From Novipirellula aureliae (GTDB taxonomy: Bacteria > Planctomycetota > Planctomycetia > Pirellulales > Pirellulaceae), in contig NZ_SJPY01000008.1 in the NCBI RefSeq assembly GCF_007860185.1, positions 78,577 through 142,576 on the forward strand: a stretch of 64,000 bases of DNA, in the 5' to 3' direction. Within the stretch, counting starts at the first letter, position 1. Each line of letters begins with the position of its first letter. A model generated the notes under the pieces. It had not been told where the DNA came from, did not search any database, and was given only the letters and a program-made list of their open reading frames with translations. Shown in pieces: positions 38,158-59,766 of the stretch. A program made the position numbers and the translations under genes.

Positions 38158-38262
38158 GCTCTCGGCGGCACTCGTATCTCGGCGGTACTCGTATCTCGGC
38201 GGCACTCGTATCTCGGCGGCACTCGTACTCGTACTCGTACTCGTGCTCGTCGTCCGAGGACG
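38158..38262. repeat. Short tandem repeats, 17-18-mer then 6-mer
   Basis: About four copies of an ACTCGTATCTCGGCGGC-like unit followed by five copies of CGTACT. The two repeats share the ACTCGT core, so the array grew by slippage. Copy number is likely variable. Translated reading gives only low-complexity YEYEYEYE-like sequence and is not a gene. Confidence 0.85.
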
Positions 38263-44712: not shown

Positions 44713-44840
44713 TAACCCGGATGATTCATGGGCTTGCAAATTGTTTTGCTAACGTCTACGCCTTAAAGCGTTTACGTTCATTGCTCGAAAAACAGTCTGC
44801 GTATTAGCCGTTTTGCCGTTAGCGGCCTGTCGATTTAATC

Positions 44841-44904
44841 GTTTAACGCTTAGCCGAAGGCGTCAGCTTTCCCATAAGCGGTCGCCTATGGCTTGGCGTT
44901 AAAC
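44841..44904 (-). repeat. attC-like 64-bp core, copy D1
   Basis: GTTTAAC to GTTAAAC, complement orientation of the cores in C. Both outer arms are of GGCCTGTCG type and pair fully. Confidence 0.65.
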
Positions 44905-44999
44905 AATAAGTCGAGTCAAACCGATTAAATCGACAGGCCGTTAGCCACGGTTCACACGACAAATCACGCAGCCGTGGCTATCGGGCTGTCGATTTAATC

Positions 45000-45063
45000 G
45001 TTTAACGCTTAGCCGAAGGCGCCAGCTTTTCCATAAGCGGTCGCCTATGGCTTGGCGTTAAAC
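45000..45063 (-). repeat. attC-like 64-bp core, copy D2
   Basis: Same core. The left arm is GGGCTGTCG type and the right arm pairs with GGCCTGCTG type, so the arms no longer match at their ends. Confidence 0.65.
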
Positions 45064-45158
45064 AATCAGTCGAGTCAAACCGATTAAATCAGCAGGCCGT
45101 TAGCCACGGTTCACACGACAAATCACGCAGCCGTGGCTATCGGGCTGTCGATTTAATC

Positions 45159-45222
45159 GTTTAACGCTTAGCCGAAGGCGCCAGCTTTTCCATAAGCGGT
45201 CGCCTATGGCTTGGCGTTAAAC
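45159..45222 (-). repeat. attC-like 64-bp core, copy D3
   Basis: Same core as D2, base for base over the 64 bp as far as I can compare. The arms differ by one base (GGGCTG against GGCCTG). Confidence 0.65.
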
Positions 45223-45317
45223 AATAAGTCGAGTCAAACCGATTAAATCGACAGGCCGTTAGCCACGGTTCACACGACAAATCACGCAGCCGTGGCTATC
45301 GGCCTGCTGATTTAATC

Positions 45318-45381
45318 GTTTAACGCTTAGCCGAAGGCGTCAGCTTTTCCGTAAGCGGTCGCCTACGGCTTGGCGTTAAAC
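45318..45381 (-). repeat. attC-like 64-bp core, copy D4 with paired changes
   Basis: Same core but with A to G at 45351 and T to C at 45366, turning CCATA/TATGG into CCGTA/TACGG. The two changes compensate each other in the inner stem. The arms are of mixed type (GGCCTGCTG left, complement of GGGCTGTCG right), as in copy A1. Confidence 0.65.
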
Positions 45382-45466
45382 AATAAGTCGAGTCAAACCG
45401 ATTAAATCGACAGCCCGCTATCGCCAAAACGGCTAATGAATAATCCGGGCTAACAATATACAACCT

Positions 45467-47994: not shown

Positions 47995-48574
47995 CTTTTC
48001 TTCCGTTTCTTATTAAATTGGACAGTTCAAATGCTTACCACGCACTACGAGCCCAAAGCCGGGTAGTGAACACTCTTCCATTATACCCAGCAGGGGTGGT
48101 TGTAAGCAATACAAAATTGGGCAGTGCGACGATCCGTCAAGTGTGGGAGGTTGGTAGCTAGCAAACATTCCAAATTGACCTCCAGAGCACTCTGCATGGG
48201 GATGACGCCCCCCTATATCTTGTTATGACCAAACCCCATCCCTGGCACACCTGAAAAATCGTAATTTAGCGAAAATTGGGGGTATCCCCTCCAAGAGCCC
48301 TCGTCCGAATGCCCCTCGAAATGGTGGTGTGCCATCGGCTGTCTGGCAGTCATGCACAACACCATGTGTGGGTCGCCTTGTGCACTCCAATCGTTTCGCA
48401 AAACAGCTGTATGGTCGACTGGGGGGAAATGTCATGGCGACGCCAGCCGGGGGGATTTTTAGTCAGGGCGACTAAAGGGCGGGAGATTCGATTTTCAGAC
48501 TACCCATCGTTAGAAAATTTCTGCTAAAGAGGTGGCTGGAAAAGACCGCTGCTTATTATCGCTTGAAAATACGA
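47995..48574. other. Divergent intergenic region, 580 bp
   Basis: Separates the response regulator and the LptF/G-like gene. It holds a possible inverted repeat (GTGTGCCATCGG and CCAGGGATGGGG-like pieces) but nothing convincing. Small frames here lack ribosome sites. Both promoters must lie here. Confidence 0.4.
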
Positions 48575-49771
48575 ATGCCCACCCGCCTGACTCGATACAT
48601 CCTACTGGAGATCTTCAAGATCTTTATCGTCGCGCTCATCGCGATGACGATGTTGATTTTGATGATTGGGGTCGGTCGCGAATTGTTGCGACGTGGCTTG
48701 GGCATCATGGCGGTCGTCCAACTGTTGCCTTATGTGCTGCCAATCGCTCTTCAATTCTCGTTTCCAGCCACCGCATTGTTCTCCGTTTGCTGCGTCTATG
48801 GGCGGATGGCTGCGGACGGTGAGGTGTCGACGGTCAAAGCGTCGGGAATCTCCCCACTCAAAATGCTTCAACCCGCTTTGATCTTTGCGGTCCTGTTGAG
48901 CCCGATATCGGTTTGCGTTTCAGACCTGGCCGTTTCCTGGGGCAAACCGGGGATCAACCGCGTCGTCTTGATGTCGGTGGAGGATATCGCCTATCGAGTT
49001 TTGCGAGCACAGCACTCGTATACGTCGGATCATGGCTTTTCGATACACGTCCGCGATGTCCAAGGCAAAACGCTCATCCAACCCACGGTGTCGGTGCTCA
49101 ATCATGGCAATGATGGCCCCATGAAATTGACAGCAAAAACGGGTCAATTGAGTCTCGACCCCGCCACATACCAACTGGTCTTGCAAGTCGTCGACAGTCA
49201 AATCGAGACGGGGCGTGGAATTCAAGGGATTGTGCCCGGCGAGATTGAGTACAAAATCCCGCTCGGCCAAGCGATGATTGACAAAGACCCTGCTGATCGA
49301 AGCCCCAGTTCGCTGCCGCTACGGATTATCATGACCGAGCGTCTGCAGCAAGACGCGCGAACCCATGCTGCCGCGGGCCAATTGGCCGCTCATGTAGGCT
49401 TTTCCATCCTCATGTCTCGCAGCGAAGCGATCGCGGGGCCCGCCGGGCAGGGAATTGAAGCGAAATTAGCTCACAGCAAAAAACGTCTCACTCGGCTTCA
49501 CACCGAGCCCTGGCGCCGCTGGGCTGAAGGCTTTAGTTGCTTTTTCTTCGTTCTCGTCGGTGCTCCTCTAGCGATGATCGCCCGGACAAGTGATTACTGG
49601 ACCACGTTCGGGCTCTGTTTTCTGCCCATTCTGCTGACCTACTATCCGCTATTCATCTTCGGTCTCGAGCAGGCCAAGGATGCCGCCATCCCTCCCTACG
49701 GCGTTTGGATCGGCAATATCGTTCTCGGAACAATCGGTGCAACCCTCATCGCCCGAGTTCGCCGGTACTAG
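48575..49771 (+). CDS. LptF/LptG-family (YjgP/YjgQ) permease
   Basis: 398 residues from the ATG at 48575 (a TTG start 12 bp earlier is possible). The N-terminus TRLTRYILLEIFKIFIVALIAMT is typical, followed by helices near 20-40, 50-80 and 95-120. A periplasmic beta-jellyroll part follows (about 130-300) and then three C-terminal helices (FSCFFFVLVGAPLAMIARTSDYW, LPILLTYYPLFIFGLEQA, IGNIVLGTIGATLIARVRR). In Gram-negative bacteria two such permeases with LptB move lipopolysaccharide to the outer membrane. Only one copy is seen here and no lptB. Confidence 0.9.
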   Translation: MPTRLTRYILLEIFKIFIVALIAMTMLILMIGVGRELLRRGLGIMAVVQLLPYVLPIALQFSFPATALFSVCCVYGRMAADGEVSTVKASGISPLKMLQPALIFAVLLSPISVCVSDLAVSWGKPGINRVVLMSVEDIAYRVLRAQHSYTSDHGFSIHVRDVQGKTLIQPTVSVLNHGNDGPMKLTAKTGQLSLDPATYQLVLQVVDSQIETGRGIQGIVPGEIEYKIPLGQAMIDKDPADRSPSSLPLRIIMTERLQQDARTHAAAGQLAAHVGFSILMSRSEAIAGPAGQGIEAKLAHSKKRLTRLHTEPWRRWAEGFSCFFFVLVGAPLAMIARTSDYWTTFGLCFLPILLTYYPLFIFGLEQAKDAAIPPYGVWIGNIVLGTIGATLIARVRRY

Positions 49772-49868: not shown

Positions 49869-50507
49869 TGCTGGATTCCACGAGTAGCAGCGTCTCTCCG
49901 AGACGCTGGATTTCACGAGTCTCGGAGAGACTCGGCTACTACTGGACTTCACGAGTAGCAGCGTCTCTCCGAGACGCTGGATTTCACGAGTCTCGGAGAG
50001 ACTCGGCTACGGCTGGATTTCACGAGTAGCAGCGTCTCTCCGAGACGCTGGATTTCACGAGTCTCGGAGAGACTCGGCTACTGCTGGATTTCACGAGTAG
50101 CGGCGTCTCTCCGAGACGCCGGGGTCCACGAGTCTCGGAGAGACTCGGCTACTACTGGATTCCACGAGTAGCAGCGTCTCTCCGAGACGCTGGGGTCCAC
50201 GAGTCTCGGAGAGACTCGGCTACGGCTGGATTTCACGCGTAGCAGCGTCTCTCCGAGACGCTGGGGTCCACGAGTCTCGGAGAGACTCGGCTACGGCTGG
50301 ATTTCACGAGTAGCAGCGTCTCTCCGAGACGCTGGGTTCCACGAGTCTCGGAGAGACTCGGCTACGGCTGGATTTCACGAGTAGCGGCGTCTCTCCGAGA
50401 CGCCGGGGTCCACGAGTCTCGGAGAGACTCGGCTACGGCTGGATTTCACGAGTAGCAGCGTCTCTCCGAGACGCTGGGATCCACGAGTCTCGGAGAGACT
50501 CGGCTAC
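49869..50507. repeat. Nine-unit tandem array of a 71-bp double hairpin
   Basis: The CACGAGTAGC motif recurs at 49879, 49950, 50021, 50092, 50163, 50234, 50305, 50376 and 50447, always 71 bp apart. Each unit has two hairpins: GCGTCTCTCCGAGACGC and CGAGTCTCGGAGAGACTCG. The core of the second (GTCTCGGAGAGAC) is the exact complement of the core of the first (GTCTCTCCGAGAC), so the unit is also one large inverted repeat. Units 4 and 8 read CGGCGTCTC/GAGACGCCG where the others read CAGCGTCTC/GAGACGCTG, a paired change. The array lies after the LptF/G-like gene; it is not coding. Confidence 0.93.
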
Positions 50508-50722
50508 AAAAGACAACGCTTGCACTGGAGGATGGACAGTTCGGGAGGGTTGGACAAAATAGAAGGACCAGCTCCGCCTAAAAAACTGTTTTTTTTTAGG
50601 TTTCCTCTACTCTTTTTCTGGAGGCCGCGTACTCTAAGAACTGCGGATCTCTTCGCTTTCCTGTTGAGTGGTGCGCGATAAAGTGAATCCATCCGTCCCT
50701 TTGGAAGTTTCCTTGGTACTGG
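50508..50722. other. Intergenic region after the hairpin array
   Basis: Contains an AT-rich inverted repeat CCTAAAAAACTGTTTTTTTTAGG (50577-50600) that could stop transcription from either side, though its stem lacks GC pairs. Otherwise nothing recognised. Confidence 0.4.
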
Positions 50723-50822
50723 GGTTTGTCCGAAAAGGGGTCTGACCCTCTCCAGACAAGCCGAGCACTATGGGGAAAAACGATTGTTTTCCAAGGGGTC
50801 AGAACCCTTTTCGGACAAAGCC
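50723..50822. repeat. Inverted-repeat element, family 3, copy 2
   Basis: Starts GGTTTGTCCGAAAAGGGGTC and ends GGGGTCAGAACCCTTTTCGG then ACAAAGCC, a near-perfect inverted repeat of about 30 bp around GAAAAACGATTGTTTTCC. As in the copy at 29201-29300, its open frame (TTG TCC GAA AAG GGG) fuses in frame to the gene downstream and gives a false N-terminus. Confidence 0.82.
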
Positions 50823-50842
50823 TAGAAAAGTCGAGTAGCAAG

Positions 50843-52588
50843 ATGAATCATCAACCAACAGAACGTGAATTGGAAGAATCTTCCTTTGTAATGTCGCGGC
50901 GTCAACGTATTGGTCAAGTGAAACGCCGTCGGTTCACAATACTACTCGGCTCCGCTGCAATCGCTAGTATTGCCTTGCTGCCAAGTATTCAGGTTGTCGC
51001 ACAAGATGCATGCTGTTTTGAACCAACGTACCGTTTGCAATGCGAAACGGTTATGGAGCCGCAAACGGTCGAGCGTCTGCGTCTGACGTACGAAACGTCT
51101 TATGTTGAAGAGGAGGTGACCAGCTATCGCCCCGTTTTGAAAACGCGTACCGAGGAAAGAGAATACAAGGTTGCTCGTCCAGTTACCGAAACCTCTTACC
51201 GTGAAGAACGCTATACCGTTTGGAAGCCGATCGTCGAGACGTCGTACCGTGACGAGACCGTCACCAATACTCGTTACGTCACCGAAACGGCAGAGCGTGA
51301 AGAACGTATCACGACCTACAAACCGGTGGTGGAAACCGAATATCGGCAACAACAATATCAGGTGCAACGACCTGTCGTTGAAACCGAGTATCGCCAACAA
51401 CAATATACCGTGCAACGTCCTGTCATCGAAACGCAGTACCAAACGCAACAGTACACCTCGATGCGTCCCGTCACGACCTACCAAAATCAAACCGTTGACG
51501 CGGGTGGCTACGTTGCGCAGCAAGTCGTTAAGCCGGGGCAGCTTCAGTATCAAGCTCAGTACGTACCGAACGCTTACGCAGTGCCTGGCCCCTTGGGCTT
51601 ATTCGCCCGCGTTCGTGGTGCCTACGCCGTGACGCCTCAAGTCACTCCGCCAACGGTTCAAACCCAACTTGCCTATCGGCCCAATTACATCCAACAACAG
51701 ATTGCTCAAACCAGCTACGTTCCTGAAGTCAATCAAGTCCAGGTACCGGTGCAAGTCCAAAAGATGCAAACGGAAGTGGTGACGCAAACGGTTCCCGTTC
51801 AAGTCAACCGTATGCAAACCGAAACGGTGATACAAAATGTTCCCATCCAAACGACTCGCATGGTTCCTACGACTGAAGTGCGAAAGGTGCCCTATGTGAC
51901 GCAGCGTCCTGTAACGGAGACATCGACTCGCAAAGTGCCTGTCCAGCAACAACGTTGGGTGACCGAAGAGCAGGTCCGCAAAGTTCCCGTGCAAACCACG
52001 CGAATGGTTTATGAGACTCGCCGCGAACCAGTTCAAGTTCAGTACTATGAACAAGAAGCGGTTACGCGAAAGGTGCGTCGGCCTGTGACAACCAAGAAGT
52101 ACGTGCCTTACACCGAAACGATCATGGTACCCAAGCAGGTGGTCCAACGAGTTCCTTTATCGTATTACGATCCGTTTAGCCCAGCGATCGTGAACGGTTA
52201 TTCGTCGTTTTCGGTACCGTCAAGCTCATCCGACATCGTCTCGAGTTCAAGAGTGATTATCGAAGCCCCTTCGGTGTCGCAGCCCGAAGATTCGAGCGAC
52301 GAAGACCATTCCGTATCGTCGCCGCCCAAACCCGCCTTCGATGACGAGCCTAGCACTCGGCTAAAGGGTGCTGAAATCAGCCCGCCAACTAGCGAATATG
52401 GCGATAGCAATTATGGACGTAGCGGCGAGGATGATAACGAGGATGATGACGAGTCATCGTTAAAACTGGATTCGCCTGGCAATTCATCCGACGTCGACGA
52501 GGTTCCCATTCCTTCGTTGGAAGACGCGGATGCCACCCAAGCCGGATGGCGAATCCGTTGGAACCCCGTTTTCGCCCGTGAGGTGTAA
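50843..52588 (+). CDS. YTV-repeat protein, planctomycete-specific
   Basis: 581 residues from the ATG at 50843. The 117-bp upstream extension is excluded because it lies in a repeat element. A membrane or signal helix (RRFTILLGSAAIASIALLPSIQVVAQ) is followed by two blocks of short repeats. The first (about 65-200) has units of the form Y-x-V-x-[RK]-P-V-x-E-T-x-Y, such as YQVQRPVVETEYRQQ. The second (about 290-440) has units such as VRKVPVQTTRMVYET. The C-terminal 100 residues are acidic. It matches the tandem YTV-type repeats described in Rhodopirellula. It is likely secreted and probably structural; no enzyme motif. Confidence 0.87.
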   Translation: MNHQPTERELEESSFVMSRRQRIGQVKRRRFTILLGSAAIASIALLPSIQVVAQDACCFEPTYRLQCETVMEPQTVERLRLTYETSYVEEEVTSYRPVLKTRTEEREYKVARPVTETSYREERYTVWKPIVETSYRDETVTNTRYVTETAEREERITTYKPVVETEYRQQQYQVQRPVVETEYRQQQYTVQRPVIETQYQTQQYTSMRPVTTYQNQTVDAGGYVAQQVVKPGQLQYQAQYVPNAYAVPGPLGLFARVRGAYAVTPQVTPPTVQTQLAYRPNYIQQQIAQTSYVPEVNQVQVPVQVQKMQTEVVTQTVPVQVNRMQTETVIQNVPIQTTRMVPTTEVRKVPYVTQRPVTETSTRKVPVQQQRWVTEEQVRKVPVQTTRMVYETRREPVQVQYYEQEAVTRKVRRPVTTKKYVPYTETIMVPKQVVQRVPLSYYDPFSPAIVNGYSSFSVPSSSSDIVSSSRVIIEAPSVSQPEDSSDEDHSVSSPPKPAFDDEPSTRLKGAEISPPTSEYGDSNYGRSGEDDNEDDDESSLKLDSPGNSSDVDEVPIPSLEDADATQAGWRIRWNPVFAREV

Positions 52589-53931: not shown

Positions 53932-56900
53932 CTAGGCCGCGTCTTCGTCGTAGTAGCCTGGGTCGTCTTTGCCGTCACCGTCGAAGTCGCCGACGATCGG
54001 TTGACTATCCGAGCCCGTCCTCGGAACAATGATACGGCGATCGTTCGCGGTCAGTTTGCGGTCTCCATCGCTGTCGATAATCCAAACGTCACCTCGGACC
54101 ACTGCAATCTCGTCGATACCGTCCCCGTTAAAGTCACCGACGATCGCTTCGTCCGTCGAGCGGCCAAAGCTGGTCTGCTCGTCTTTCGGCGTGATCCGTC
54201 CGTCACCATCACTGTCGAGAATCCACAGGCTGCCGCGAACGATTCCGATCTGATCGATCCCATCCCCGTTCCAATCGCCGACGATTGGCGTATCGACTTG
54301 CTCGCCATATTGGAACACATGGTCGACGGCATCGGCTCGCAGTGCCCCTTGGCTGCCTCGTCGCAGCAGTCGTTGGCGATCCTCACCACGGTCTTCGTGA
54401 TGTCGAGCCAGTTCCTCGGCCGACAATTGCCGCCTGCGAGTGTTTTCTGGATCGGGCAGGCCTGGGTCTCGCTTGATCCGCTGGGCGTCCCGTTGCCAGC
54501 GACGGCCAAAAATCCCGATGTCATCTTTGCCATCGCCGTCCCAATCGCCGACGACGGGTCGATCCAATTCGGTACCAAGCTTGATCCACAAATCGCCTTG
54601 GTCCCAGCGTCCGTTGCCATTGATGTCGATGAACCAATTGCCGTTGACGAAGATCGCCGCTTCGTCTGATCCATTTCCGTCAAAGTCGCCGGTCAAGGCG
54701 ATGGCATCTTCTTCACCGAGCGTCATCACATCGGCGATTTCCATCAATTTGCCATCTGAATTGACAATGATCCATCGGCCAATTCGATGTTCACCTTCAC
54801 TCCAGTTTTCCTTCATCGTCGTCGCGTTAACGCCGCGAACAACCGAATGGACCTGCTCAGCACCTAGTTGATTTCCGCGTGGGAAGCCGCCATTGATCAC
54901 GCTGAGGTGCCACGACACCGCCCATTCATCATCGGCTAATAGCGGAGCACGAAGTGGATCGATTTCCGCGTAGGAAACCAATAGCTCAGGTCGGGCGAAG
55001 GTTTCAATCGGTGCGAAAACACGAACCTCTTCTTGGACCGGTTCGGGTAAACGAGGGATCTGGACTTCGCGAACCAAGATCTCACTAAAATTATTGTCTT
55101 GACTGATTCCGCCTGCTACTAGCGTGATGTTCAAAATCGCGTCATCTCTCGGGTGCGTCGCCTCGCTCAATGCCAAGGTCTGAATCATGATGCGTCCATC
55201 TTCCGAGAGCGCGTCTGCTTTGTTGACAGCCAAACCGCCCGTTGACCCCGGCGTATCAAGCCCGTCAATGTAGTCCTCCGGTTGAATTTGGTAGACATGA
55301 TATGTTCCCGGACGAAGGCCGGTGAACTCGTAGTAACCATTGGCATCGGTCGTGATTCGAATCACAGCATCCGCATAGATTCCTGGCAGTGCCCGCTCTG
55401 ATTCAAACGGTTGCCCAAGAACGTTTCTCAGCTCCAGCGTAACGTTTCCGATCCGCACATCATTAGGCTTGAGAATACCATCTTTGTAATCACGTAAATC
55501 CTCTGCCGCAGGTGGCTTGGATGCCGAAATCGCGTCGCCGTCCTGGAACACGTATCCCGAGATCGTCGCGGGTGGGATCTCGGGGAAGTCGTAGTCGATG
55601 GCCGTTGTCCCACCCACGAGCCGGATTCCGACCAACAAGTCATCCCCGCCGACACTGCCGCCCGCAGATCCTGGCAATTGGCTGCCGTGAAACAACCCCG
55701 AAGGCTGCGCTTCGCGAACCGAATAGATGCCCGGCGCCAAGTTCTTGAATTCGTAATTACCGAGCGAATCGGTCTTCGTGGTGGCTAAGACGTTCCCGTT
55801 TTCATCCATCAATTCGATGGTGACCCCAGAAATCACCACATCACCCGAGTTGTATTGGAAATCCAAATCCGTCTCGCTCCACACCGAACCGGAGATGCTT
55901 GACGGTTCCAACTCGCAGAAATTGTAGTCGACCACGTCGTTGCCAGCGGATAGGCTGAGAGCCAGATGATCGTCTTCGATCACTTCGCCCCCACCGCTGC
56001 CGATATGTTGAGCTCCTTGGAAGTATCCGACCGGTTGCAATTCGATGATATGATATCGTCCCGGCGGCAGGTTTGCGAATCGATAGCGGCCATTTGAATC
56101 GGTCTGGGTTTGACTAATCAAGCGACCACTGTCATCACGCAGCTCAATCGTCACCCCTGCGATCGGCGGTTCATCGGGATCGATCATGCAATCCGCATCC
56201 TTATCGACATGCACCGATCCAGAAATCGAACCGGGTGGCAATTCACCGAAGTTGTACTCGGTCTCGTGACGACCCGGTTTGAGTGTCATCGCCAACAAGT
56301 CATTCTCGACGATTCGTCCGCCACCGGTGCCGACCGATTGGCCACCTTGGTAGTAGCCCGTCGGTTGTTGCTCGAAAATTTGATAGTCGCCCGGTGCGAG
56401 TCCTTCAAAGCGATAGTTCCCCTGTGAATCGGTCTTCGTCGTCGCGATCGTTTGTCCGCTGGGGTTACGAAGTTCGATCGTCACGCCAGCGATCGGCGGT
56501 TCTTCGGAATCATACTGGTTATCGGCATCGTGATCGACGTAGACGGTTCCAGCGATCGAGCCGGGCGGGATTTCGCAGAAGTCGTAATCGGTGAAATGGG
56601 CTCCGGCGAGCAGAGTGGTTCCCAAACGGTCATCGCCAAGAACACGTCCGCCGCCGCTGCCGACCATTTGACCGCCTTGGAAATAGCCATCGGGTTGATG
56701 TTCAGCAATCTCGTACTCACCCGGCATCAAATTGCCGAACGAGTAATGGCCGTTGGCATCGGTTTGCGTTTGTGCGATGATCGCTCCCGAAGCATCCTTC
56801 AAGTCGATTCGCACCCCTTCGAGAGGCGCTTCGTCGGGATCACGAACGCAGTCGGCATCGGTATCCACATAAACGACGCCTGCGATCGACCCAGGTTCGA

Positions 56901-59766
56901 CTTCACAGAAGTTGTAATCGGTCAGACGGTCGCCGAAGCCGATCGGGATTGCGGATATCGTGTCTTGTACCGACGTATCACCGCCGTGACTGCCCGCTAT
57001 TTGTCCACCTTGCAGCCATCCAACCGGCTGGAGTTCCCGGACGGTGTAGTGGCCAGCGGGTAAGAACGTGAATTGGTATTTACCGTTTGCATCGGTACGA
57101 GTCGAGGCGACAAGGTTTCCACTATCGTCATACAATTCGACGACAACATTGGCGATCCCCATTTCGCCTGAATCGAATGTGCAATCCTGGTCTTGATCGG
57201 CAAAGACAACGCCACGAATTTCCGCAGGCGGTTTTTCACAGAAGTCGTAATCAACCGCCACTTCCGCCGACGCCAAGTTGATCTTTCCGATTCGATTGGG
57301 CGGATCGGCTTGGCCGCCTGCTGAACCTGCTTTGGACGTGCCTTCGAAGTAGCCATCGACCGTACCTTCGACCACACTGTATTCGCCAGGCTCGATATTC
57401 GTAAAGTGATACATGCCTTCGGCATCGGTTGTTGTGCGGGCGACCTCGTCACCGTCTTTGTTGAACAAGCGGACCTCGATGCCCTCTAGCGTCGGCTCTC
57501 CAGCGTCATAAGTGCAATCGTTATCCATGTCGACATGGACTCGGCCCGATAGTGATGCGCCGACCAGCTCACCAAAGTTGTAATTGACACCAACGTCACC
57601 TTGCTTGAGTGCGATGTCGATTAACGAATCACCGTCGGCTCCAATGCGTCCATTTTCAGACCCGCGAATTGTCCCTGGCGTGTCTTTGCCATCGAAATAG
57701 TTTGCAGGCTGCGATTCAACCAATCGATAGTTGCCGGGGACGATATCCTTGAATTCATAGTGCCCATTCGCATCCGTCTTGGTCGATGCGACCACGGTCC
57801 CGGACTCATCGACCAATGACACGGTCGTGCCTGGAATCGCTTGTTCACCGGTACCCTTCATCCCATCATTGGATTGATCGTGATAGACAAAACCGCTGAT
57901 TGCCGCTGGTGCGATTTCGCAGAAGTTGTATTCGACCCCCATACCGGCAGCGGTCATCGTGATTTCGCGAATCAGTCCGCCATCAATGCTGGTTCCCGCC
58001 AAGACCCCGTCGATGCGACCGACATGCGATTTGCCATCGAGCAAACCGGCCGGGGTGTATTCGACGATCCGGTAATTGCCGATCGGCACATCGTTGAATT
58101 GGTAGCTTCCCTCCGCGGTGGTTGTCGTCTCCGAGATGGTGACACCAAGATCGTCTTGCAAAACGACCTTCACGCCCGCCAATGGCTGGTTACCGTTGGC
58201 TTCTCGGATGCCATTACAATCTTGACCGGGTGCGAGTAGATAGACGTAACCCGAGATCGAACCGAAAGGAGTTTCGCCAAAATTGTATTCGATCCCCGAA
58301 TCGGCTCCGACCAAATGAACGTCACGAATGGCATCACCGGGGTTATCGGCGCGTCCGACGACGCGTCCGTCGATCGTCCCGGCGGAATCCGCACCATCGT
58401 TGAGATAGTCGGGTTGGTCCACTTCGATCACTTCGTAGGATCCTGGTGCCAATCCATCAAACCGATAGGAACCGTCCGCTGAGGTGGTGACCGTGATGGC
58501 CGACTGCGGGGCGATCGTATTGATCGGAACCAAACGCACTCGCACGCCGGCGATCCCCGTTTCCGTCGTCTCACGTTGGCCATTGAGATTGTCATCGCGA
58601 TAGACGAACCCTGAGATCGCCGCCGCATTTGCTTCGGCGAAGTCATAGCGAATCGCATCGGTATCGCCCAGCGGGATCGAAATATCGCTGATCCGATCGA
58701 CCGTTTCCACGAGTCCCGATTGCACTCCATCGACCGACCCAGGAATCGCGGCAACGCTATACAGACCCTCGGGTTGGGTTTCCACGATACGGTATTTGCC
58801 GGGTGCCAAGCCAAGCGTTTTTGCAAACAGGTACTCGCCATTGGCGTTCGTCGCGGCTCGATGTCCCGTATCGACGTAGCGGTTGACAGACGAATCGAAT
58901 TGCCAAAGGGCTATTTCCACATTCGCAAGCGGCATCTCCTCGGTATCTCGCGTCTGGTTTAAGTTGTTGTCGAGCCAAACTTGACCGGAGATGGAAATCG
59001 GCTTGGGCACTTGAGTCGTCACACCGATTGCGGCGGCCGTTCGGTTCGGCAAACTGTCGGTCCCCGGACCTTCATCGGCTGGCAAATTGAGTTGGTGACT
59101 ACTGGCCGGGTCGCCATAATCGTTTAGGAAAATCGAATCGGCATGCGAGGTTTCGTAGTGGGGTGCATTGAAGGTTGCTTCCAGAATGGAATCTTGAAAC
59201 TCTTGGCCAGACGTGATCACGTCGAGTCGGCTATTGAACAAATCGAGATCGTCCGTCACCCGCAGCACTTCATCGACATCGATCGTAAACTCGATACGAT
59301 CGCCACTGCGGAAGCCGGACAATTTCAGCACCAACTCTTGACCGCCATCTTCGACCGATGCCACGACGTCGATATCCTGTCCATCGGCTGATTGGACTTT
59401 TACGACTTTGAATGGCTGGGCTTGATCTTTCCCTCGACCACCGTCGATGGTATCGAAGAGCGGGTCGCCGATTGAAATGCCGTCACCGAATTTGTCGGTG
59501 TTGATGCGAAGTTCGGTTAGCTCCGTTCCTGCAGCACCGCCGGTGAACGACAAGATGAAACGGTCGCCCTTCGAGTCACCACCGACATCTTGATCGGATT
59601 CCAAGTAATCGGTCTCGATGTAAACAACGCCGACGTGAATCGGATCCGCAGCAAACAAACGCCGCATCTCCAACCGTTCGGTCGCCATGATCCGACGTTT
59701 GACGTGCTTGGGACTCGTTTTGACGCTGCGTCGATTTCGTTTCGTTTTCCAGAACACCCGAGGCAC
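53932..59766 (-). CDS. Giant SdrD B-like repeat surface protein
   Basis: 1944 residues starting at GTG (59766, GGAG directly upstream). The basic N-terminus leads to ATERLEMRRLFAAD, the planctomycete motif found on many giant exported proteins. After a 200-residue beta domain there are 11 SdrD B-like repeats of about 95 residues (about 258-1530), each with ISGxVxxDxxxD, a GVxxxL strand, T-x-T-D-x-x-G-x-Y-x-F and PGxYxxxExxP. Repeats 5 to 9 mostly carry a cysteine in D-C and another in NFCE, possibly disulfide pairs. The last 300 residues hold FG-GAP-like DxDGDG units (GDWDGDGKDDIGIF). Such B domains bind calcium and make stiff rods in staphylococcal Sdr proteins. A role in adhesion or wall structure is inferred. 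Confidence 0.92.
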   Translation of the reverse strand: MPRVFWKTKRNRRSVKTSPKHVKRRIMATERLEMRRLFAADPIHVGVVYIETDYLESDQDVGGDSKGDRFILSFTGGAAGTELTELRINTDKFGDGISIGDPLFDTIDGGRGKDQAQPFKVVKVQSADGQDIDVVASVEDGGQELVLKLSGFRSGDRIEFTIDVDEVLRVTDDLDLFNSRLDVITSGQEFQDSILEATFNAPHYETSHADSIFLNDYGDPASSHQLNLPADEGPGTDSLPNRTAAAIGVTTQVPKPISISGQVWLDNNLNQTRDTEEMPLANVEIALWQFDSSVNRYVDTGHRAATNANGEYLFAKTLGLAPGKYRIVETQPEGLYSVAAIPGSVDGVQSGLVETVDRISDISIPLGDTDAIRYDFAEANAAAISGFVYRDDNLNGQRETTETGIAGVRVRLVPINTIAPQSAITVTTSADGSYRFDGLAPGSYEVIEVDQPDYLNDGADSAGTIDGRVVGRADNPGDAIRDVHLVGADSGIEYNFGETPFGSISGYVYLLAPGQDCNGIREANGNQPLAGVKVVLQDDLGVTISETTTTAEGSYQFNDVPIGNYRIVEYTPAGLLDGKSHVGRIDGVLAGTSIDGGLIREITMTAAGMGVEYNFCEIAPAAISGFVYHDQSNDGMKGTGEQAIPGTTVSLVDESGTVVASTKTDANGHYEFKDIVPGNYRLVESQPANYFDGKDTPGTIRGSENGRIGADGDSLIDIALKQGDVGVNYNFGELVGASLSGRVHVDMDNDCTYDAGEPTLEGIEVRLFNKDGDEVARTTTDAEGMYHFTNIEPGEYSVVEGTVDGYFEGTSKAGSAGGQADPPNRIGKINLASAEVAVDYDFCEKPPAEIRGVVFADQDQDCTFDSGEMGIANVVVELYDDSGNLVASTRTDANGKYQFTFLPAGHYTVRELQPVGWLQGGQIAGSHGGDTSVQDTISAIPIGFGDRLTDYNFCEVEPGSIAGVVYVDTDADCVRDPDEAPLEGVRIDLKDASGAIIAQTQTDANGHYSFGNLMPGEYEIAEHQPDGYFQGGQMVGSGGGRVLGDDRLGTTLLAGAHFTDYDFCEIPPGSIAGTVYVDHDADNQYDSEEPPIAGVTIELRNPSGQTIATTKTDSQGNYRFEGLAPGDYQIFEQQPTGYYQGGQSVGTGGGRIVENDLLAMTLKPGRHETEYNFGELPPGSISGSVHVDKDADCMIDPDEPPIAGVTIELRDDSGRLISQTQTDSNGRYRFANLPPGRYHIIELQPVGYFQGAQHIGSGGGEVIEDDHLALSLSAGNDVVDYNFCELEPSSISGSVWSETDLDFQYNSGDVVISGVTIELMDENGNVLATTKTDSLGNYEFKNLAPGIYSVREAQPSGLFHGSQLPGSAGGSVGGDDLLVGIRLVGGTTAIDYDFPEIPPATISGYVFQDGDAISASKPPAAEDLRDYKDGILKPNDVRIGNVTLELRNVLGQPFESERALPGIYADAVIRITTDANGYYEFTGLRPGTYHVYQIQPEDYIDGLDTPGSTGGLAVNKADALSEDGRIMIQTLALSEATHPRDDAILNITLVAGGISQDNNFSEILVREVQIPRLPEPVQEEVRVFAPIETFARPELLVSYAEIDPLRAPLLADDEWAVSWHLSVINGGFPRGNQLGAEQVHSVVRGVNATTMKENWSEGEHRIGRWIIVNSDGKLMEIADVMTLGEEDAIALTGDFDGNGSDEAAIFVNGNWFIDINGNGRWDQGDLWIKLGTELDRPVVGDWDGDGKDDIGIFGRRWQRDAQRIKRDPGLPDPENTRRRQLSAEELARHHEDRGEDRQRLLRRGSQGALRADAVDHVFQYGEQVDTPIVGDWNGDGIDQIGIVRGSLWILDSDGDGRITPKDEQTSFGRSTDEAIVGDFNGDGIDEIAVVRGDVWIIDSDGDRKLTANDRRIIVPRTGSDSQPIVGDFDGDGKDDPGYYDEDAA

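Follow-up and report, generated by a model that had tools for sequence, protein, structure and literature searches.

A nine-unit tandem REPIN array in Novipirellula aureliae, very likely a BIME of a REP family with a divergent RAYT

Our analysis of Novipirellula aureliae indicates that a strictly periodic array behind an lptF-like gene is very likely a bacterial interspersed mosaic element (BIME): nine tandem doublets of repetitive extragenic palindromes (REPs), or REPINs, forming a miniature, non-autonomous mobile element of a REP family served by a REP-associated tyrosine transposase (RAYT) encoded on another contig, C7. The array lies at positions 49869 to 50507 of the window, by which we mean the whole 64,000-nucleotide stretch that was analyzed (assembly GCF_007860185.1, contig NZ_SJPY01000008.1, positions 78,577 to 142,576). 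Using computational tools, we obtained the anatomy of the REPs, their copy number and patchy distribution, a RAYT gene flanked by them, the residues and predicted fold of its product, and a likeness of linkers to REPIN spacers in other arrays of this genome. From these data, we infer that the C7 RAYT acts on these REPs and that the REPs are mobile, as well as how their ends may be joined and what effect, if any, the array may have on lptF or the downstream gene. The REPINs are tiny, probably mobile elements of a well-known class.

Each unit consists of two GTAG-tagged palindromes arranged head to head, with their GTAG ends pointing outward, and a 15-bp linker (Table 1). Every unit contains one forward and one reversed copy of the 13-bp core GTCTCTCCGAGAC, just as the original prediction had described a double hairpin sharing such a core in opposite orientations, and an extended core motif gave 18 matches in the window, 18/18 of them exact with up to three mismatches allowed (0 in 100 shuffles). 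Tandem Repeats Finder reported positions 49870 to 50507 with a period of 71, 9.0 copies, 95% matches, 0% indels, and a score of 1108. The nine units and the strict 71-bp period claimed earlier stand, while the claimed exactness does not, with the units about 95% alike and 61 of the 71 columns invariant. Units 4 and 8 share a matched change in the first stem (A to G on one side, T to C on the other) that preserves the pairing, and a stretch similar to the linker is also found 5' of the first GTAG of the array. The REP build fits the GTAG superfamily (criterion, a GT[AG]G foot 0 to 2 nt from a 5- to 13-bp stem with a short loop), as it combines a GTAG foot, a gap of 0 to 2 nt, a 7- to 9-bp stem, and the loop TCC.

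Folding as either two small hairpins or one long one, which had been foreseen for each unit, is borne out by computation: the single hairpins fold at -9.7 and -8.5 kcal/mol, and the 56-nt REP pair folds as one long hairpin at -33.2 kcal/mol on either strand (z of -5.7 and -6.4), or at -18.9 and -17.9 for the two strands when folded as DNA. Paired changes, moreover, keep the stem. Among 11 distinct REPs from the window and the RAYT flanks, both partners have changed in 5 of 9 pairs, compared with a shuffled mean of 2.1. Across 109 distinct copies taken from the genome sample described below, pair 6-24 is formed in 81% (shuffled mean, 40%) and pair 8-22 in 94% (shuffled mean, 62%), the inner stem pairs are nearly invariant, and the outermost pair 5-25 finds no support (44% paired versus 37% shuffled).

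A search for single units elsewhere in the genome, proposed together with the original prediction, yielded 667 dispersed matches to the REP palindrome with at most two mismatches in 7.27 Mb (40 contigs), and a reversed control pattern yielded 0. Within the family, the palindrome occurs in 24 of 119 genomes, our own included, with 1 to 667 matches each. No copy was found in the two congener genomes searched or in 39 related loci retrieved with LptF as the query (mostly orthologues, some with little flank), as would be expected if the repeat expanded in this lineage. It had also been suggested that units absent from close relatives, coupled with a lack of transcript ends and binding, would indicate a neutral expansion; the absence, one half of that condition, is seen in these 39 loci and two congeners. 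The nearest named LptF relatives come from Planctomycetes bacterium CA13 (84%) and Rhodopirellula maiorica SM1 (79%), both of which we take to be members of Pirellulaceae. By crude open reading frame (ORF) calls, 6 of the 10 REP clusters on contig C8, which carries the array, overlap no called ORF, and the other 4 overlap ORFs of 100, 134, 264, and 224 aa, the last by its final base only.

In two other genomes of the family, G099 and G031, Y1-type protein genes adjoin such repeats, and a search with the G031 protein uncovered a 57% identical protein of 221 aa in N. aureliae. The gene (G000:C7:203799-204449) is flanked by REPs of the same family in inverted orientation, 11 upstream and 6 downstream, and its stop codon TAG is part of the GTAG of one of them. 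A Pfam Y1_Tnp search of this genome missed it because its score lies below the cut-off, leaving homology to the G031 RAYT as the route by which it was recovered. The 13 loci found by the Pfam search were devoid of this REP family within about 1.5 kb on each side, the only matches being three chance-like ones, at 3 mismatches, in L006 and L007.

The sequence of the C7 protein alone matched a single PDB entry, 4er8 (E of 0.13), the Escherichia coli TnpA-REP with a REP hairpin, and a profile of 22 relatives placed 4er8 first with an E of 0.0003. The predicted structure (pLDDT, a per-residue model confidence, of 91.9) likewise had 4er8 as its top Foldseek match (1.6e-5), and structural alignment ranked 4er8 best (Z of 13.2 over 137 residues, root mean square deviation of 3.1), ahead of IS200-like chains at a Z of 11.0 and below. 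The HUH motif and the catalytic tyrosine are H137-x-H139 and Y197, the latter aligned to Y115 of 4er8, and both histidines, the tyrosine, W176, Q177, D182, H183, R186, and N201 are invariant in 5/5 RAYTs (our own and its four closest homologues). Of these, W176, Q177, D182, H183, and R186 match the E. coli GTAG-contact residues W94, Q95, E/D100, H101, and R104; over the 22 relatives, W, D, and R are invariant at these positions, and Q and H are kept in at least 90%. The roles of these residues in E. coli TnpA-REP, including the GTAG contacts, are described in PMC6006769 and PMC8266576 (here and throughout, statements on the literature draw on portions of the cited papers). Class 3 Y1 proteins of Planctomycetes carry the motifs W[TA] and YV..EQ (PMC6006769); the C7 protein, having WQ and YI..NP, is therefore not placed among them. 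Judged from sequence and a predicted model, the C7 protein is likely a divergent RAYT and the partner of the REP family that forms the window array.

The four closest homologues of the C7 RAYT, from four other genera (G031, G046, G084, and G099), adjoin palindromes of the same core as well, although for G031 the downstream flank alone is visible, the contig ending 97 bases upstream. In the tree, the N. aureliae RAYT clusters with its counterparts from G084, G046, and G031 (support of 100/97) and then with G099 and G054 (100/99), and the GTCTC-TCC-GAGAC core stands beside 5 of the 6 RAYTs of that clade. No same-core REPs were present at 25 weaker loci of the RAYT search (L100 to L124; of 30 read), two of which had one loose match each. 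A scan within 400 bp of 42 RAYT loci, which left out the weak or partial L111, L119, L120, and L122 to L124 and many protein matches without a locus, revealed GTRG hairpins (R being A or G) on both sides of 13, on one side of 4, and on neither side of 25. Since 14 of 88 C8 tiles free of this REP hold at least one GTRG hairpin (6 hold at least two), little can be concluded from just one hairpin next to a RAYT. The apex TCC is found in 67 of 77 hairpins beside RAYTs and in 16 of 17 flanked loci, several of which belong to one REP family and hence are not independent, compared with 4 of 33 C8 hairpins outside this family; the stems vary between many genomes while the TCC apex stays common.

In other family genomes, GTAG palindromes that mostly differ in stem and share the TCC apex flank the RAYT genes at L170 to L176, L181, L182, L189, and L118, and L119, outside the 42-locus scan, has GTAG hairpins of another kind.

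To place the window array among its kind, we took a census of REP clusters in 672 kb of the 7.27 Mb, comprising all of C8 (300 masked bases), bases 1 to 120,000 of C10, 19 kb around the RAYT on C7, and places on C1 to C4 that were picked among the REP matches listed, so that the sample leans toward exact matches and the first contigs. It contains 353 REPs (at most three mismatches) in 50 clusters: 21 of at least three REPs in which plus-oriented copies precede minus-oriented ones (+^n -^m), 10 of one orientation, 8 plain pairs, 7 singles, 3 alternating clusters, of which the window array is one, and 1 mixed cluster. The +^a -^b order, with GTAG ends outward, holds in 39 of the 43 multi-REP clusters, 29 of them with both orientations, compared with 9.07 of 43 expected for random orientation, a figure that assumes independent neighbors, which tandem copies are not. 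Neighboring pairs are ++ or -- in 222 cases and +- in 57, and tail-to-tail (-+) neighbors are confined to four clusters, the three alternating ones and the mixed one. On C8 as a whole, the 10 clusters are three pairs, the window array, four +^n -^m clusters, and two singles. REP spacing ranges between arrays from about 30 to more than 70 bp and is mostly steady inside one array, and the largest sampled clusters have up to 26 REPs. No pattern relating the amplified arm to gene direction or replication strand was apparent by eye. The same REP family forms 48 clusters in G046, among them 22 plain pairs, 21 singles, and one alternating array, and tandem REP arrays are present among the matches listed for G084.

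In the +^n -^m clusters, the linkers resemble the inner spacer of their own REPIN. For 26 arms, taken from 19 of the 21 clusters (two were dropped for an inner distance above 60 bp), the summed score was 518.6, compared with a permutation mean of 265 (sd, 18), and 0 of 20,000 permutations scored as high; the own inner spacer ranked first for 16 of the 26 arms. Trimming the stem letters left the outcome unaltered (304.5 versus 170; sd, 14; 0 of 20,000), and a smaller excess was seen against the outer flank (291.7 versus 244; sd, 12; 38 of 20,000). By eye, the spacer copy in several arrays takes in a few bases of the opposite hairpin before a GTAG foot follows. REPs differ at 2.53 positions per 25 bases inside a cluster and at 4.15 between clusters. 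Taken at the level of sequence, these data point to a local growth of arrays.

We propose that the HUH single-tyrosine RAYT would recognize the GTAG foot and hairpin in single-stranded DNA, perhaps by the TCC apex, nick nearby, and rejoin the ends, whereby copies of REPINs would arise at further positions, often adjoining the ends of genes. In E. coli, single-stranded REPs are nicked by TnpA-REP, which joins ends and depends on GTAG, and loop positions of the Stenotrophomonas maltophilia REPtron Sm are essential for its own TnpA-REP (PMC8266576). Multiplication in place, of the REPIN or of a single arm, would then have followed at some sites, either through RAYT-primed rolling-circle copying of the module, which Nunvar et al. 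proposed as the source of BIME arrays (PMC2817692), or through replication slippage at the hairpins. The window array, where the whole REPIN plus 15 bp would have been multiplied, fits either route. It is a tentative and rather doubtful idea that the RAYT in this lineage, beyond moving REPINs, also drives the growth of REPIN arms in place. In this scenario, each added unit would comprise one hairpin, the inner spacer of the REPIN, and the initial bases of the opposite hairpin, joined to a GTAG foot; such joining would keep the order +^n -^m, and the window array would be the whole-REPIN version.

Several competing explanations deserve consideration, the strongest being that the repeats are REPINs, mobile or once mobile, whose tandem growth came about by replication slippage or unequal recombination without a RAYT. 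We regard this as plausible, though somewhat less likely than not: a linker resembling the local inner spacer is the outcome of any local duplication, and the lower divergence of REPs inside clusters agrees with it, whereas the GTAG foot reached by the spacer copies of several arrays is the foot that RAYTs use, and the prevalence of plain pairs and singles in G046 argues that hairpins alone do not force arrays. That the array is instead selected by the host appears unlikely to us, although this could hold on top of a REPIN origin. Stacked hairpins after lptF would then act in RNA, as a 3'-end stabilizer or attenuator, or in DNA, as a gyrase site in the manner of E. coli BIME-2, with selection keeping the copy number. 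Consistent with this idea, folding is strong on both strands, E. coli BIME-2 is a binding site for gyrase, and REPs assist in Rho-dependent termination (PMC2817692). Furthermore, 30 of the 50 sampled clusters sit close to a stop codon (-6 to 20 bp) whose ORF runs into the cluster, compared with 96 of 5802 random positions that fell no more than 20 bp from a stop (crude ORF calls; clusters were scored on either edge and random positions against either stop kind, rules that are close but not identical). However, REPs commonly lie near stop codons, perhaps through insertion or tolerance, and both the placement of REPs beside gene ends and the use of GTAG as a stop codon were already known (PMC3733652). 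Host selection is also at odds with the absence of REP copies from the 39 related loci and two congeners, with the 112 bp that separate the array from the stop codon, and with the intrinsic-terminator scan, which had no match inside the array. The array may influence lptF expression or DNA topology.

A regular period and strong folding might also suggest a noncoding RNA or a locus resembling clustered regularly interspaced short palindromic repeats (CRISPR), a reading that we find scarcely credible given copies dispersed genome-wide and an Rfam scan with no family at the gathering score (the best of five weak matches reached 27.8 bits versus 84). CRISPR was rejected because variable spacers are lacking, one 71-bp sequence being common to the units. 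A promoter reading found nothing in the array itself. The transcription barrier, the nucleoid site, and the small-RNA source entertained in the original prediction are conjectural functions; its anatomy was sound and its "structural array" near the mark, and what it missed was the identity of the repeats as GTAG-type REPs in BIMEs/REPINs with a RAYT. An assembly artefact is very improbable: tandem repeats are hard to assemble, and the unit number may be off, but the units differ, with matched stem changes, and the genome contains many other arrays that differ in period.

A number of observations weigh against a REPIN array served by the C7 RAYT. The protein reaches 54.7 bits with NF047646, the NCBIfam model for REP-associated tyrosine transposases, compared with a cut-off of 80, and also stays under the Pfam Y1_Tnp cut-off, and its Foldseek TM-score to 4er8 is just 0.43 to 0.55. 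A match to NF047646, which speaks for a RAYT identity, is seen in 5/5 proteins, the C7 RAYT and its four closest homologues, albeit below the cut-off; this cut-off is one model's threshold and not a defining RAYT trait in the papers, and because of the score, the name divergent RAYT is given on flanks, residues, and fold. G054 belongs to the same RAYT clade and has no GTAG hairpins beside its RAYT. With the G031 protein as the query, 9 of the 24 REP-bearing genomes, including G009 (54 REPs), gave no RAYT match at an E of 0.001 or below. G098 (206 REPs) has just one distant, unflanked RAYT. Several of these assemblies are split into hundreds of contigs, and a gene may have been missed. Some arms misfit the linker pattern, with the own spacer ranking last of 25 for the plus arm of C7:203286 and 11th of 26 for C1:670838, and the linker tests covered +^n -^m clusters, so that the alternating window array stands outside them. 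The array, moreover, lies 112 bp past the lptF stop, unlike the 30 of 50 clusters situated at stops. Finally, no empty site was found: of four window genes compared, LptF alone was present at the lptF loci of relatives, the one exception being a weak response-regulator match in L082.

Table 1. Features of the array and its neighboring genes (window positions)
Feature	Position(s)	Strand	Basis or remark
Tandem array of nine 71-bp units, very likely BIME/REPIN	49869..50507	.	Unit alignment and Tandem Repeats Finder
First REPIN (GTAG-hairpin A, short spacer, hairpin B-CTAC; 56 bp)	49884..49939	.	
REPIN starts 2 to 9, every 71 bp	49955, 50026, 50097, 50168, 50239, 50310, 50381, 50452		
REP A, GTAGCAGCGTCTCTCCGAGACGC (GTAGCGGCGTCTCTCCGAGACGC in two units); 9 copies	49884..49906	+	Motif match
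REP B, GTAGCCGAGTCTCTCCGAGACTC; 9 copies	49917..49939	-	Motif match
Inter-REPIN linker, 15 bp	49940..49954	.	Resembles REPIN inner spacer by eye
Last REP B, right end of array	50485..50507	-	Motif match
LptF/LptG-like permease gene	48563..49771	+	PF03739, 147 bits; upstream context
YTV-repeat protein gene	50843..52588	+	Downstream context; start uncertain, listed ORF from 50726

The gene in front of the array, first read as resembling a lipopolysaccharide exporter, is indeed LptF/LptG-like by its Pfam match, with 112 bp between its end and the first GTAG. Other repeats occur in this part of the genome. Between the array and the YTV-repeat gene, at 50719 to 50825, lies an element resembling a miniature inverted-repeat transposable element, with 30-bp inverted ends that are 90% complementary and 39 matches in this genome, single arms counted; its end holds GGGGTCAG, which fits the terminal inverted repeat (TIR) motif GGGGWSAS quoted in PMC3733652. 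A 159-bp tandem repeat with 3.7 copies and long inverted arms, at 44823 to 45417, has 84 matches in the genome (inverted partials counted), many of about 121 bp, and constitutes a second palindromic repeat family. At L004, L005, and L010 (G000:C8, about 48 to 56 kb), Y1_Tnp genes lie near repeated AAGGTGTCAGGACTCTT motifs, perhaps another TIR- or REP-like family. Short tandem repeats of TCTCGGCGGCACTCGTA and ACTCGT are found at 38160 to 38250, and a 1944-aa ORF at 53932 to 59766 has SdrD B-like domains and FG-GAP repeats (Pfam scan of about half).

The system is of a known kind, a RAYT-linked BIME array, with an uncommon arm-array pattern; REPs, REPINs, BIME arrays, REPtrons, and Planctomycetes GTAG REPs are already in print (PMC3733652, PMC3116915, and PMC2817692). 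Like E. coli BIME-2 and the BIMEs of Stenotrophomonas and Xanthomonas, the array alternates GTAG REPs in tandem modules with a linker, and the E. coli RAYT gene is itself flanked by BIME-2, as the C7 RAYT is by REPs (PMC2817692). Unlike in those BIMEs, the REPs here are short, with a 7- to 9-bp stem and a TCC apex, and form many head-to-tail arm arrays in one genome. In Pseudomonas fluorescens SBW25, too, an inverted REP doublet is the mobile unit, REPINs form ordered tandem clusters, and REPIN clusters stand beside each RAYT (PMC3116915); there, the largest of 16 ordered clusters has four REPINs, compared with nine in the array and up to 26 REPs per cluster here. The GTAG superfamily of Di Nocera et al. 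(2013) shares the GTAG foot, the stem-loop, head-head dimers, clusters, and GTAG stop codons (PMC3733652), whereas the family here differs in its excess of ++ and -- over +- neighbors (222 versus 57). R. baltica is named in the same paper as a holder of several REP families. In size and build, the REP also resembles that of S. maltophilia REPtron Sm, a 23-nt REP with an 8-bp perfect palindrome and a 3-nt loop (PMC8266576). Satellites have been counted in R. baltica (PMC6749651), none of them described as REPs in the text covered, and a literature search, judged by listings and text passages, returned no paper describing this REP family or the +^n -^m grammar.

In conclusion, we have documented a planctomycete REP/REPIN/RAYT system, with a RAYT and hundreds of repeats, of which the portions of the literature covered hold brief mentions only. 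Several RAYTs within the bacterial family, standing beside palindromes of different stems that mostly have a common TCC apex, provide a series for asking how a RAYT recognizes its REP. As the linkers of many arrays resemble the spacer of their own REPIN, the question of how BIME arrays grow is open to a direct test, and if RAYTs do drive the growth of REPIN arms in place, RAYT/REP pairs would be generators of bacterial satellites.
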